Positions 24,244-40,810 of a stretch of 64,000 nt of DNA are shown one piece after another. Position 1 is the stretch's first letter. Each line of letters begins with the position of its first letter. The translations under genes were made by a program, and so were the position numbers. Source of the DNA: Anaerolineae bacterium (GTDB lineage Bacteria > Chloroflexota > Anaerolineae > JAADDB01); NCBI GenBank assembly GCA_015490995.1, contig WFWT01000019.1:1-64000 (forward strand), written 5' to 3'. Below the pieces are notes generated by a model, which was given only the letters and a program-made list of their open reading frames with translations, was not told the DNA's origin and searched no databases.

Positions 24244-24374
24244 AAGCTATATGTCACGGCACAGGTAGCACACGCCGCAACATATAGCTTCTTCAGACGC
24301 ACTAATGATCCGTTGACCGTCGTTGGCAAGCTCGTCACTCCTGAGACATCGTTGTGTCAGGCGTACCCATTATA
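24244..24374 (-). ncRNA. candidate small RNA or attenuated leader upstream of the sugar ABC operon
   Basis: On the minus strand, TATAAT (24374-24369), with TTGTAC 18 bp upstream, would start transcription near 24362. A strong interrupted hairpin follows about 70 nt later: AAGCTATATGT (24290-24280) pairs with ACATATAGCTT (24254-24244), and an inner GCGG.C/G.CCGT pairing lies within the loop. It ends in six Ts. A transcript of about 120 nt would result, either a free RNA or a leader that terminates or reads through into the transporter genes. It could instead simply be the terminator of the GT4 gene upstream. Confidence 0.45.
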
Positions 24375-37263: not shown

Positions 37264-37872
37264 ATGGCCGATTATGAGGAGGTCCGCAGGAAATTGGACT
37301 GGTGGCGCCGCTGGCTTTCACCGGAACCCCCGCGCGCGACGGAAGAGGAAGAGGAGGACGACGAGCGCCGCTCCCTGGAAGAGTGGGATGATCTGGTCGA
37401 ACAACGCATTCAAGAGGCCATGCGTCGTGGGGAGTTCGACGATCTGTCCCTCAAGGGACAACCGCTACGGTTTGAGGAGAACCCCTTTGTGGACCCGGCG
37501 GAAGCATTGGCACACCGCTTGCTGGCCGGCCAAGGATTTACCTTACAGTGGATTGAAGAGCGCAAAGCCATCGAAGCGGAAATTCACGCCCTACGTGTCC
37601 GTCTGCGCCGCGCCTGGCACTGGTACATGCGGTCCCTGGAAGTGCTCAACCACCGTGATCCCGACGATCCGGAGGTGCGGGACGAACGGGCGTGGACCGA
37701 AGCCCGTTGGCAACAGTATCTTGTCGAATTTGAAGAAGCCATCGCGGAGCTGAACCGGCGCATTGACACGTACAACCTTACCGTCCCCTTAATCCGCTTC
37801 CAAATGTTTCGTCTGCGCCTTCAGGAGGAATTGCGCTCCATTGGCGATGGCCCATCGGCCGAGGAGAGGTGA
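37264..37872 (+). CDS. DUF1992 (DnaJ-C28-like conserved domain) protein
   Basis: 202 aa. The central part LVEQRIQEAMRRGEFDDLSLKGQPL, then NPFVDPAEALAHRLLAGQGFTLQWIEERKAIE, is the DUF1992 domain, also found in DNAJC28 and in E. coli YjbM-like small proteins. An acidic stretch (EEEEEDDERRSLEEW) precedes it, and long amphipathic helices of coiled-coil character fill the C-terminal half. Function of the family is unknown. It lies 9 nt after the HDAC-like gene and 31 nt before the dipeptidase gene. Confidence 0.82.
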   Translation: MADYEEVRRKLDWWRRWLSPEPPRATEEEEEDDERRSLEEWDDLVEQRIQEAMRRGEFDDLSLKGQPLRFEENPFVDPAEALAHRLLAGQGFTLQWIEERKAIEAEIHALRVRLRRAWHWYMRSLEVLNHRDPDDPEVRDERAWTEARWQQYLVEFEEAIAELNRRIDTYNLTVPLIRFQMFRLRLQEELRSIGDGPSAEER

Positions 37873-37903
37873 ACTCCGTCAGGTTGTGCCCTGGAGAGGT
37901 CCT

Positions 37904-38884
37904 ATGAGCCAGCGTGTGCCCGTCATTGATGCCCACTGTGACACGTTGCAAAAGGTGCTAGCCGGGGAGGGTACCTTGGGAGAGGGTATCCCCACCGCGC
38001 ATGTGGACGTTCCCCGGTTGCGCCAGGGCGGCGTGGACGTGCAGGTCTTCGCCTGCTGGGTGCCAACGCCATACCGATATCACAACGCGACGGTATACAC
38101 CCTCCGCCTGATCGAGGCATTTTACCGCGAACTCAACGCTTATGGCGACGCGTTGCACCTCGTGCGTACCGCAGAGGACATCCCTCATGTCCTGAGCACG
38201 GGCAAAATCGGGGCCATTCTGAGCCTGGAAGGTGCTGAACCACTGGACGGTTACCTGGAACTCCTCAACGTGTTCTATCGCCTCGGGGTGCGTTGGCTCG
38301 GCCTCACGTGGAACTTTCGCAACCAAGTAGCGGATGGGGTTGCCGATGCAGACACCGGGGGCGGGCTTACTCCCTTTGGCGTGGAGGTCGTCCACACTTG
38401 CTATCACCTGGGCATCGTGGTGGACGTTTCACACCTCTCCCCTGCCGGCGTGGAAAGTGTACTGAAAGAGGCGAAGGGACCGGTAGTGGCCTCACACAGC
38501 AATGCCCGGGCGCTGTGCGACCACCGTCGTAACCTGACCGACGACCAAGCCAGAGCGATTGCAGCCACCGGCGGCGTTATTGGGGTAACGTTTGTACCGG
38601 CGTTCTTAACCCCCGAGCCGGAAAAGGCCAGTCTGGACCACGTACTGGACCACATCGAACACTTCGTACAGGTAGTAGGGGTAGACCATGTGGGCATTGG
38701 CTCTGACTTCGACGGCCTCGGAGACAGCCGTCCCCCACGTGGTCTGGAGGATGTTCGGCACTATACGGCTCTCCACCAGGGATTGCGCGCTCGCGGGTTC
38801 ACGGAAGAGGAGATTACCGCAATTCTCGGTGGAAACTGGTATCGGGTACTCACCCAAGTGCTCCCCACCGCGGGGACGGTGTGA
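37904..38884 (+). CDS. membrane dipeptidase (renal dipeptidase family, M19)
   Basis: 326 aa. Dinuclear zinc dipeptidase of the amidohydrolase superfamily; relatives cleave dipeptides, including L-D forms. VIDAHCDTLQ carries the first HxD metal pair, AILSLEGAEPL the bridging Glu, DVSHLS and VASHSNARAL metal or active-site His, and GIGSDFDGLG the last Asp. No signal peptide, so it is probably cytoplasmic. ATG at 37904 follows GGAGAGGTCCT. The frame beginning at 37841 would overlap the DUF1992 gene and is not used. Confidence 0.93.
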   Translation: MSQRVPVIDAHCDTLQKVLAGEGTLGEGIPTAHVDVPRLRQGGVDVQVFACWVPTPYRYHNATVYTLRLIEAFYRELNAYGDALHLVRTAEDIPHVLSTGKIGAILSLEGAEPLDGYLELLNVFYRLGVRWLGLTWNFRNQVADGVADADTGGGLTPFGVEVVHTCYHLGIVVDVSHLSPAGVESVLKEAKGPVVASHSNARALCDHRRNLTDDQARAIAATGGVIGVTFVPAFLTPEPEKASLDHVLDHIEHFVQVVGVDHVGIGSDFDGLGDSRPPRGLEDVRHYTALHQGLRARGFTEEEITAILGGNWYRVLTQVLPTAGTV

Positions 38885-38907: not shown

Positions 38908-39150
38908 CTATTCCCGACCCAGGCGTTGGTCCCCCTCCATAAACGTTTCGTACAGTCGTAACCACAGTGGTGAATCAGTGGCGTCGGGCACATGCTCGGC
39001 TAAAATACGCAACGCTTCGGCCAATTCTTGAAGTCCTCTGCCCAGATGTTCCCAAAACGCCGGCGGTAAAGAATAACCTTCCCGTATCAACCACTGTATC
39101 AGCGTAACCAACCACTCCGTTTCCGGTAGCCCTTCGCGCGTGTCAGCCAT
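38908..39150 (-). CDS. small hypothetical protein beside the putative origin
   Basis: 80 aa, acidic and predicted to be all-helical (WLVTLIQWLIREGY; GRGLQELAEALRILAEHV). GGAG lies 8 nt before the ATG. I do not recognise it. It is convergent with the dipeptidase gene and its 5' end faces the DnaA-box region. Codon use looks coding-like, but without homologues it stays uncertain. Confidence 0.5.
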   Translation of the reverse strand: MADTREGLPETEWLVTLIQWLIREGYSLPPAFWEHLGRGLQELAEALRILAEHVPDATDSPLWLRLYETFMEGDQRLGRE

Positions 39151-39279
39151 CGAACGTGCTCCACAACATGCTCCTGAATGCCTGACAAAACGTCGCCCTT
39201 AGGAAGGAATGCCCTCCTCCTGCCTCCCCCAACCGGCCTGATAACAGGCATGAATGTGCCGGACAACCAGGACCCGTCA

Positions 39280-39780
39280 TTTCATTGACAGTTGCCGGTG
39301 AGAGGATGGTAGTCTTGTACTCATCCACAGTCTTAATTGTATAGTCTATCTGTTAGGGTAGTCATCTTTAGTAGGGCTTGGGGAACTGTGGATAAAGCCC
39401 CGATCCTAACCGGCGTGGTAACCTCTCCCTATATCTAGGCACCGAACGCACAATGCTCCCCAGAAATAGGGAGGATAAAGGGGATGGAGGGGAAATGTTA
39501 TCCACAGAAGGTTGGGGATAACTTGTGGACATTGTGGACAACTTGATGTCCCGACCGACACCTGAAATAGGTGGGCAAGGTACAGTCTAAATGTGGGACT
39601 GAGGATACCGTTCAGGCCTAAATATAGAGTATCGCGTGAGGGAGGACACATGGGGTTAGAAAGGTTATCCCCAAGAGGCTTGGGGTTTCCCCATCCTTTG
39701 GCTATGATTATCCACGATAAGCAGGGGGGATATCCACAACGTTATCCTTAGCACTTCTTGGCACTTCGTACAGTCATTAG
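39280..39780. other. oriC: probable chromosomal origin of replication (DnaA-box cluster)
   Basis: The 655-nt non-coding stretch 39151-39805 contains eight DnaA-box-like 9-mers. Two are perfect: TTATCCACA at 39498-39506 and its complement at 39387-39395. One-mismatch sites are at 39321-39329 (TCATCCACA), 39513-39521 (complement of TTATCCCCA), 39533-39541 (complement of TTGTCCACA), 39665-39673 (TTATCCCCA), 39708-39716 (TTATCCACG) and 39730-39738 (ATATCCACA). An AT-rich stretch (39331-39380, 18 G/C of 50 by hand count) has TAG triplets. Genes of the long trp operon read away to the left and the first genes to the right read rightward. dnaA is not adjacent. Confidence 0.72.
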
Positions 39781-39805
39781 CAGATAGGGAGGTGGGCAGG
39801 GCGGC

Positions 39806-40810
39806 ATGAAAGCGGCGGATGAGCGTCGCCTGCTACCGGGGTATATCGGTTTGGCCATCCCGCGGGCCTGGGATCGCATTCCCTGGGACAAGCTGCGGGG
39901 CGTGGTTATGGTAGTGGGCGCGGTGGACACCGGCAAGAGCACCCTGATCAAGTTTCTGTGGGGACAGCTGGCTCCGCACCGACGACTGGCCGTTGTGGAT
40001 GCCGACGTAGGTCAGGCGACGTTGGGCCCCCCCACGACACAAACGTTGCGCCTGGCCTCGGAAGAGGTGCCCGAAGAGTTCCCCCCGCGCGGGCGCATAG
40101 CCCGTTGGTTCGTGGGAGCCATCTCCCCCCGGGGACATATGCTGCCCACGGTGATCGGCGTTCACCGGTTAACATCCCTGGCTCGTCGTTGGGGGGCGGA
40201 AACCATTCTGGTGGACACAACGGGCATGGTAAGTCCCAGTGTGGGGGGAGTGGCGCTCAAGTGGGCTAAGTTTGACCTGGTACAACCCAATGTGGTCATT
40301 GTGCTCCAGCGAGAACGGGAACTGGAGCCCCTCATTGCCCCCTGGCGTTCTGTTCAACGTTTTGTCTTGGTGGAGTTGCCGACATCGCCCCTGGTCCGGA
40401 CGCGTTCTCGAGAGGAGCGCATCGCATGGCGACAACAGCGGTTCCGCCTGTACTTCCGTCGTGCGCGCTTGCTCTCCGTGCCCTTACAAGCGTTTTCCCT
40501 GTTGTATGACCGGACGGCAACAGCCGGCGGGACCGTGTTGGTGCCCGGTCAACTGGTGGGGTTTTTGGACCGATGGGGATTTCTGATGGCCCTCGGGATC
40601 GTACGCCGTATCGGTGATCAAAACATCGAGGTGTTCACCCCCCTGCGGGATTTAGGACGGGTGGCTGCCCTGCGACCGGGAAGCATCGTGCTGGATGAGG
40701 ATTACCGGGACCGTCGGCTCTCCTTTCGAGCAACGGCTCCTTCTCCCTCAACGGTCGATGCTTCACCGACGATGTCATCACCTGATGCTTCCTCTCCTTC
40801 CTCCCCCTGA
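39806..40810 (+). CDS. Clp1/Grc3-like polynucleotide kinase P-loop protein
   Basis: 334 aa. The P-loop GAVDTGKSTLIKFL is near residues 38-51, and VVDADVGQATLGPPTTQTL matches the Clp1/NOL9/Grc3 family pattern (DxDxGQ...PP). ILVDTTGMVSPSVGG.ALKWAKFDLVQPNVVIVLQR follows as in that family. Eukaryotic and archaeal members phosphorylate 5'-OH ends of RNA or DNA. The C-terminal 90 residues are a small beta domain, then a Ser/Pro/Thr-rich tail. A nucleic-acid 5'-kinase is the best guess; the partner is unknown. GGGAGGTGGGC precedes the ATG. It is the first gene right of the putative origin. Confidence 0.8.
   Translation: MKAADERRLLPGYIGLAIPRAWDRIPWDKLRGVVMVVGAVDTGKSTLIKFLWGQLAPHRRLAVVDADVGQATLGPPTTQTLRLASEEVPEEFPPRGRIARWFVGAISPRGHMLPTVIGVHRLTSLARRWGAETILVDTTGMVSPSVGGVALKWAKFDLVQPNVVIVLQRERELEPLIAPWRSVQRFVLVELPTSPLVRTRSREERIAWRQQRFRLYFRRARLLSVPLQAFSLLYDRTATAGGTVLVPGQLVGFLDRWGFLMALGIVRRIGDQNIEVFTPLRDLGRVAALRPGSIVLDEDYRDRRLSFRATAPSPSTVDASPTMSSPDASSPSSP

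Follow-up and report, generated by a model that had tools for sequence, protein, structure and literature searches.

Between an 80-amino-acid open reading frame and a CLP1_P-domain kinase gene of an Anaerolineae MAG (Chloroflexota; hereafter G000) lies a 655-nt intergenic region that holds a cluster of DnaA boxes, an AT-rich patch next to one of them and two pairs of palindromes resembling NrdR boxes (Table 1). The genome is a draft of 3.04 Mb in 150 contigs, and the window analysed here is positions 1–64000 of contig C19, which is 70,488 nt long. The flanks had been read from the DNA as an unknown 80-aa gene, a dipeptidase and a Clp1-like kinase, and Pfam returns the same picture, with an M19 dipeptidase, an ORF of no known family and a CLP1_P domain. 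An 81-aa ORF inside the putative origin (39406–39651, minus strand) was considered as a further gene and judged non-coding, its GC content being flat across codon positions.

Table 1. Features of the putative origin and its flanks (window coordinates)
Feature	Position	Strand	Remarks
M19 membrane dipeptidase gene	37841–38884	+	left flank
80-aa ORF, no known family	38908–39150	-	left flank
Putative oriC, intergenic	39280–39790		box count against shuffles; keto-skew minimum; module kept in G002, G004, G005
DnaA box TCATCCACA	39321–39329	+	1 mismatch; far side of AT-rich patch
AT-rich part of unwinding region	39331–39370		AT 0.67
DnaA-trio run CTACTAAAGATGACTA	39359–39374	-	start of unwinding element
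GC-rich spacer GTTCCCCAAGCC	39375–39386	-	12 nt; includes degenerate second box
DnaA box TTATCCACA	39387–39395	-	perfect; belongs to unwinding system
Putative NrdR box 1, pair A, CCCTATATCTAGGC	39427–39440		pair 25.3 bits, best in window
Putative NrdR box 2, pair A, CCCCAGAAATAGGG	39458–39471		31 nt from box 1
DnaA box TTATCCACA	39498–39506	+	perfect; first of +,-,- triplet
DnaA box TTATCCCCA	39513–39521	-	15 nt past 39498 box; 15/20 spacing identical in G002, G005
DnaA box TTGTCCACA	39533–39541	-	20 nt past 39513 box
Possible NrdR box 1, pair B, GTCTAAATGTGGGA	39585–39598		weak; 12.1 bits
Possible NrdR box 2, pair B, GCCTAAATATAGAG	39616–39629		31 nt from pair B box 1
DnaA box TTATCCCCA	39665–39673	+	
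DnaA box TTATCCACG	39708–39716	+	
DnaA box ATATCCACA	39730–39738	+	
CLP1_P-domain kinase gene	39806–40810	+	right flank; common to G002 only

Box cluster, unwinding element and strand skew

Eight boxes within one mismatch of TTATCCACA occur on both strands at 39321–39738, two of them perfect (39387 and 39498), which reproduces the original prediction of eight such 9-mers in about 420 nt of non-coding DNA. Dinucleotide shuffles of the intergenic region yield a mean of 0.19 boxes and a maximum of 3, the runner-up 420-nt stretch of the window outside the cluster has 3, and in 556 kb of other G000 contigs no 450-nt stretch has more than two. Perfect boxes number 22 in the whole draft, and no two of them lie less than 1 kb apart except those at 39387 and 39498.

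Read down the minus strand from 39395, the perfect box, the spacer and the trio run follow one another directly (TTATCCACA-GTTCCCCAAGCC-CTACTAAAGATGACTA), and this is the single case in the 64 kb of a DnaA box followed by CTACTA (39395–39359, minus strand). In the published basal unwinding system (BUS) the DnaA-trios read 3'-GAT-5' and spacer lengths peak at 10–13 bp (PMC8287927). A BUS origin calls for three or more NAN trios no further than ~16 bp from a box, with GAT as the trio closest to it; in G000 the trios CTA CTA come after a spacer of 12 nt, and the later trios are degenerate. An AT-rich patch with TAG triplets beside a box had been singled out earlier as recalling an unwinding region, and the trio element is indeed found there: TAGTAG occupies 39369–39374, and the AT fraction at 39321–39370 is 0.67, against ~0.40 genome-wide. 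The pattern TCCNCANNCCCTACTA has exactly one match per genome in G000 and in its family members G002, G004 and G005, and every one of these matches falls in the oriC; the match in G002 lies on a contig end that apparently continues the box cluster.

The arrangement is close to that of a Bacillus subtilis-type BUS origin in its box cluster, its GC-rich spacer, its 3'-GAT-5' trios (CTA on the complement) and its AT-rich unwinding region, and departs from it in lying away from dnaA and in carrying pairs of putative NrdR boxes in the interval that separates the unwinding box from the triplet. In the predicted course of initiation, DnaA would bind the boxes of 39321–39738 and polymerise from the minus-strand box at 39387–39395 and its degenerate neighbour onto the DnaA-trios, the AT-rich DNA would melt leftward from 39374 down to ~39331, and the +,-,- triplet with the right-hand boxes would assemble the rest of the orisome.

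Strand composition was computed on the window and the contig, one of the 150 of the draft. Keto (G+T) excess runs at -0.085 per base down to a minimum at 39275 and at +0.097 thereafter in the window, and the minimum over the whole contig is also at 39275; the GC-skew minimum of the contig is at 37216. The keto change-point was matched or beaten in 23 of 2000 block permutations, which is modest alone, and its bootstrap location is 38.5–39.5 kb. The contig skew supports an origin here and is not enough by itself. In G004 the box cluster coincides with the keto minimum of its own contig.

Separation from dnaA and conservation of the module

As had been reported for the window, it contains no dnaA, the sole copy in the draft being on contig C91, where it is cut at the contig start, and dnaN, gyrB and rpmH were found neither among the ~40 window ORFs with Pfam nor by signature peptides. 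A better box cluster beside dnaA had been named as one observation that would count against the origin. In G001, G003 and G004, where the surroundings of dnaA are assembled, several kb around the gene hold no box cluster, while in G000 this comparison ends where dnaA is cut by the contig start.

The expectation that such a dnaA-less setting would be unusual does not hold within the class Anaerolineae. Among 35 scorable genomes of the class oriC lies beside dnaA in 17 and apart from it in 18, in a hand-curated tally that compares the places of dnaA with those of boxes or BUS, applies no phylogenetic weighting and takes "apart" in drafts to mean different contigs. In the single-contig genome G303, boxes and BUS are found at 3.905 Mb, the sampled cumulative skew has its minimum at ~3.8–3.9 Mb, and dnaA is ~0.62 Mb from the box/BUS site. 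A similar setting has been published for Thermomicrobium roseum, another member of the Chloroflexota, in which the origin was placed by GC skew and the origin genes are dispersed (PMC2615216). The likeness lies in an origin found through strand skew and apart from dnaA; T. roseum belongs to a different class, and the portion of PMC2615216 drawn on here carries no description of box architecture, BUS or NrdR boxes. The tally indicates frequent separation of dnaA and oriC in Anaerolineae, a point of consequence for software that relies on dnaA to locate origins.

A search for the same box cluster in related genomes, proposed as a check on the original prediction, finds the origin module in G002, G004 and G005, also away from dnaA; BLAST with the oriC DNA gave only fragments in the relatives, and motif patterns were used instead. 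G000, G002 and G005 share an identical +,-,- triplet, spaced at 15/20 nt. The module was not found in G001 and G003, whose oriCs were not located; exact NrdR palindromes on one contig of each were considered as the missing oriC and set aside, the one at G001:C236 being the nrdR promoter and the one at G003:C383 having no DnaA boxes.

The neighbours of the module differ from genome to genome. In G000 they are the M19 dipeptidase and the CLP1-like gene; in G002, aconitase and the CLP1-like gene, by way of a presumed join of two contig ends that overlap by 9 nt, with the aconitase read from its own sequence and from similarity in position to the Pfam-confirmed gene of G005; in G005, aconitase and a cytochrome c-molybdopterin-ferredoxin operon resembling alternative complex III; and in G004, a SpoIID-domain protein and a PIN-TRAM protein. 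A constant anatomy amid changing neighbours would fit rearrangements that break at the edges of the origin. The CLP1-like gene was considered as a fixed neighbour of the origin and rejected, the copy in G005 being elsewhere without boxes and those of other families having no cluster. CLP1_P-domain (polynucleotide-kinase-like) proteins occur in 18 of the 60 relatives searched, mostly away from DnaA-box clusters.

We regard the region 39280–39790 as almost certainly the chromosomal oriC, apart from dnaA. An oriC in this setting, as originally predicted, is well supported because four independent lines agree: the box cluster, the skew minimum at which strand composition switches, the trio element at the published spacing and the same module in three family genomes. 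The anatomy described here supplies that of an oriC for a large uncultured class.

NrdR-type box pairs in the origin and elsewhere

What the original prediction missed are the NrdR-type box pairs inside the origin. A near-palindrome CCCTAnATnTAGGG is common to all four family origins (G000, G002, G004 and G005). In G000 (pair A) and G005 the pair is flanked by the BUS box on one side and the triplet on the other, as it is in G002 if the contig ends are joined, with 40–41 nt from the start of the BUS box to the first NrdR box in all three; the pair in the G004 origin is weak and falls below the cut-off of a matrix trained on nrdR promoters. The published NrdR-box layout is two 16-bp palindromes with a 15–16-bp spacer (PMC12176259), and NrdR binds with spacers of 14–17 bp (PMC12051234), a period of ~30–32 nt into which the 31 nt of pair A falls. 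As in the RNR promoters of E. coli (nrdAB, nrdHIEF, nrdDG) and Streptomyces (nrdRJ), the palindromes stand ~31–32 nt apart, and similar boxes precede nrdR in the class; unlike them, the pairs here are inside an oriC and have the local consensus CCCTAnATnTAGGG / CCATATATGG.

The matrix, trained solely on boxes of nrdR promoters, was then scanned over the oriC cores of the class and over background. A pair of more than 12 bits is present in 24 of 45 cores, a set including three second clusters of genomes already counted, as against 2 of 1479 background tiles, which come from three genomes only (Fisher p ~4e-38). Base composition is argued against as the cause of this enrichment, since the other spacing classes tested (24–43 nt) give 0–2 pairs in the same cores. 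No pair above 8 bits is present in 18 of the 45 cores, some of them with good clusters (G037, G219, G241).

Outside origins, G001, of the same genus as G000, has an exact CCCTAnATnTAGGG palindrome in a tandem pair 32 nt apart before nrdR (TIGR00244, 5e-48), which is followed by a B12-dependent RNR; similar pairs with a separation of 31 nt stand in front of nrdR in G205, G045 and G132 of another family, and nrdR was not found in the examined part of G000. The boxes of these nrdR promoters were the ones used to train the matrix. Pairs of CCCTAnATnTAGGG type also lie upstream of dnaA in G002, G003, G004 and, weakly, G001, and suggest that NrdR may control dnaA; the DNA upstream of dnaA is absent from the G000 assembly. 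In three family genomes such pairs, 32 nt apart, are located ~400–450 nt upstream of dnaA (L107 10001–10046, L109 3129–3174, L110 7680–7725).

A different tandem, of the perfect DnaA boxes TTATCCACAGTGTCAAGC...TTATCCACA, occurs ~1.5 kb from nrdR and near an RNR gene in the other Anaerolineae family (L159 9926–9955 in G205, L169 9938–9967 in G132, L175 10030–10059 in G045), and recalls the DnaA control of E. coli nrdAB. Tandem TTATCCACA pairs by themselves were accordingly discarded as a marker of oriC, those of G205, G132 and G045 being near nrdR-RNR and not at an origin.

Proposed gating of initiation by NrdR

Taken as one claim, an oriC at this locus together with genuine NrdR boxes within it appears likely. 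DnaA and NrdR binding here, an effect of NrdR on initiation and the sign of that effect are what we infer from the arrangement of sites. ATP-loaded NrdR does not bind (PMC9110341), and dATP-loaded NrdR would bind the oriC pair and gate initiation, a tetramer at pair A separating the site of unwinding from the remainder of the orisome, with the same repressor acting at the dnaA and nrdRJ promoters. For G000 we lean, by a little, towards such direct gating of initiation by NrdR at oriC. We lean as slightly towards the class-wide reading that NrdR would bind tandem oriC boxes (in the G000 family, the dnaA promoter too) and directly gate initiation by the dATP level.

Of the other readings the best placed, though unlikely, is that this is an ordinary dnaA-less oriC whose palindromes serve a dimeric regulator other than NrdR or are without function in initiation. 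Some oriC cores of the class are without pairs, and the outer bases here are CCC/GGG, unlike the ACAC...GTGT of E. coli-type NrdR boxes; yet the same kind of pair stands before nrdR genes in two families, and its period of 30–32 nt is that of NrdR, other spacings being nearly absent. Less probable still is that the boxes serve only a promoter in or beside oriC, such as that of the right-hand operon, as might be thought of a known transcriptional repressor with the CLP1-like gene starting ~335 nt right of pair A: the pair stays with the origin where the neighbours have changed to aconitase, the alternative-complex-III-like operon or the PIN-TRAM gene, and it has BUS on one side and the triplet on the other in G000, G005 and, granted the joined contig ends, G002. 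That the locus is a DnaA-titration (datA-like) site or a DnaA-regulated promoter instead of an origin is very improbable, for while box clusters can be titration sites and non-origin tandem box pairs do occur near the nrdR-RNR region in G205, G132 and G045, the skew switch, the BUS and the non-coding position are present here and no second cluster was found in the 556 kb of other G000 contigs or among the perfect boxes of the draft.

If NrdR does gate initiation at oriC, inhibition at high dATP is slightly favoured over activation by bending, because it fits the known role of NrdR, the presence of sites at dnaA and the effect of excess dNTP in Caulobacter, where raised dNTPs delay initiation downstream of CtrA and DnaA by a mechanism that the authors call undefined (PMC12186491). 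Activation through bending by NrdR, as by IHF in E. coli, is only a little less probable. The sites of IHF in E. coli and of CtrA in Caulobacter are likewise accessory-protein sites among the DnaA boxes of oriC that gate initiation, whereas the protein predicted here is a nucleotide-sensing repressor, which would provide a direct dNTP input. A dATP-sensing repressor with conserved sites in oriC would, if confirmed, be a direct and testable tie between nucleotide supply and the initiation of replication; the arrangement of sites suggests such a link through NrdR, so far undescribed. In the open-access full text searched, no origin is described as having NrdR boxes; Rodionov and Gelfand (2005) may already list sites for NrdR in the vicinity of replication genes.

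Palindromes of CACTACATGTAGGG type recur on several further contigs of G002 (L319 52–96, G002:C15 and others), one of them as a tandem pair, and may reflect either a broader NrdR regulon or repetitive DNA. The G000 window has one more tandem of NrdR type, less strong at 12.9 bits, at 24245–24289 in the intergenic DNA before an ABC-transporter permease gene.
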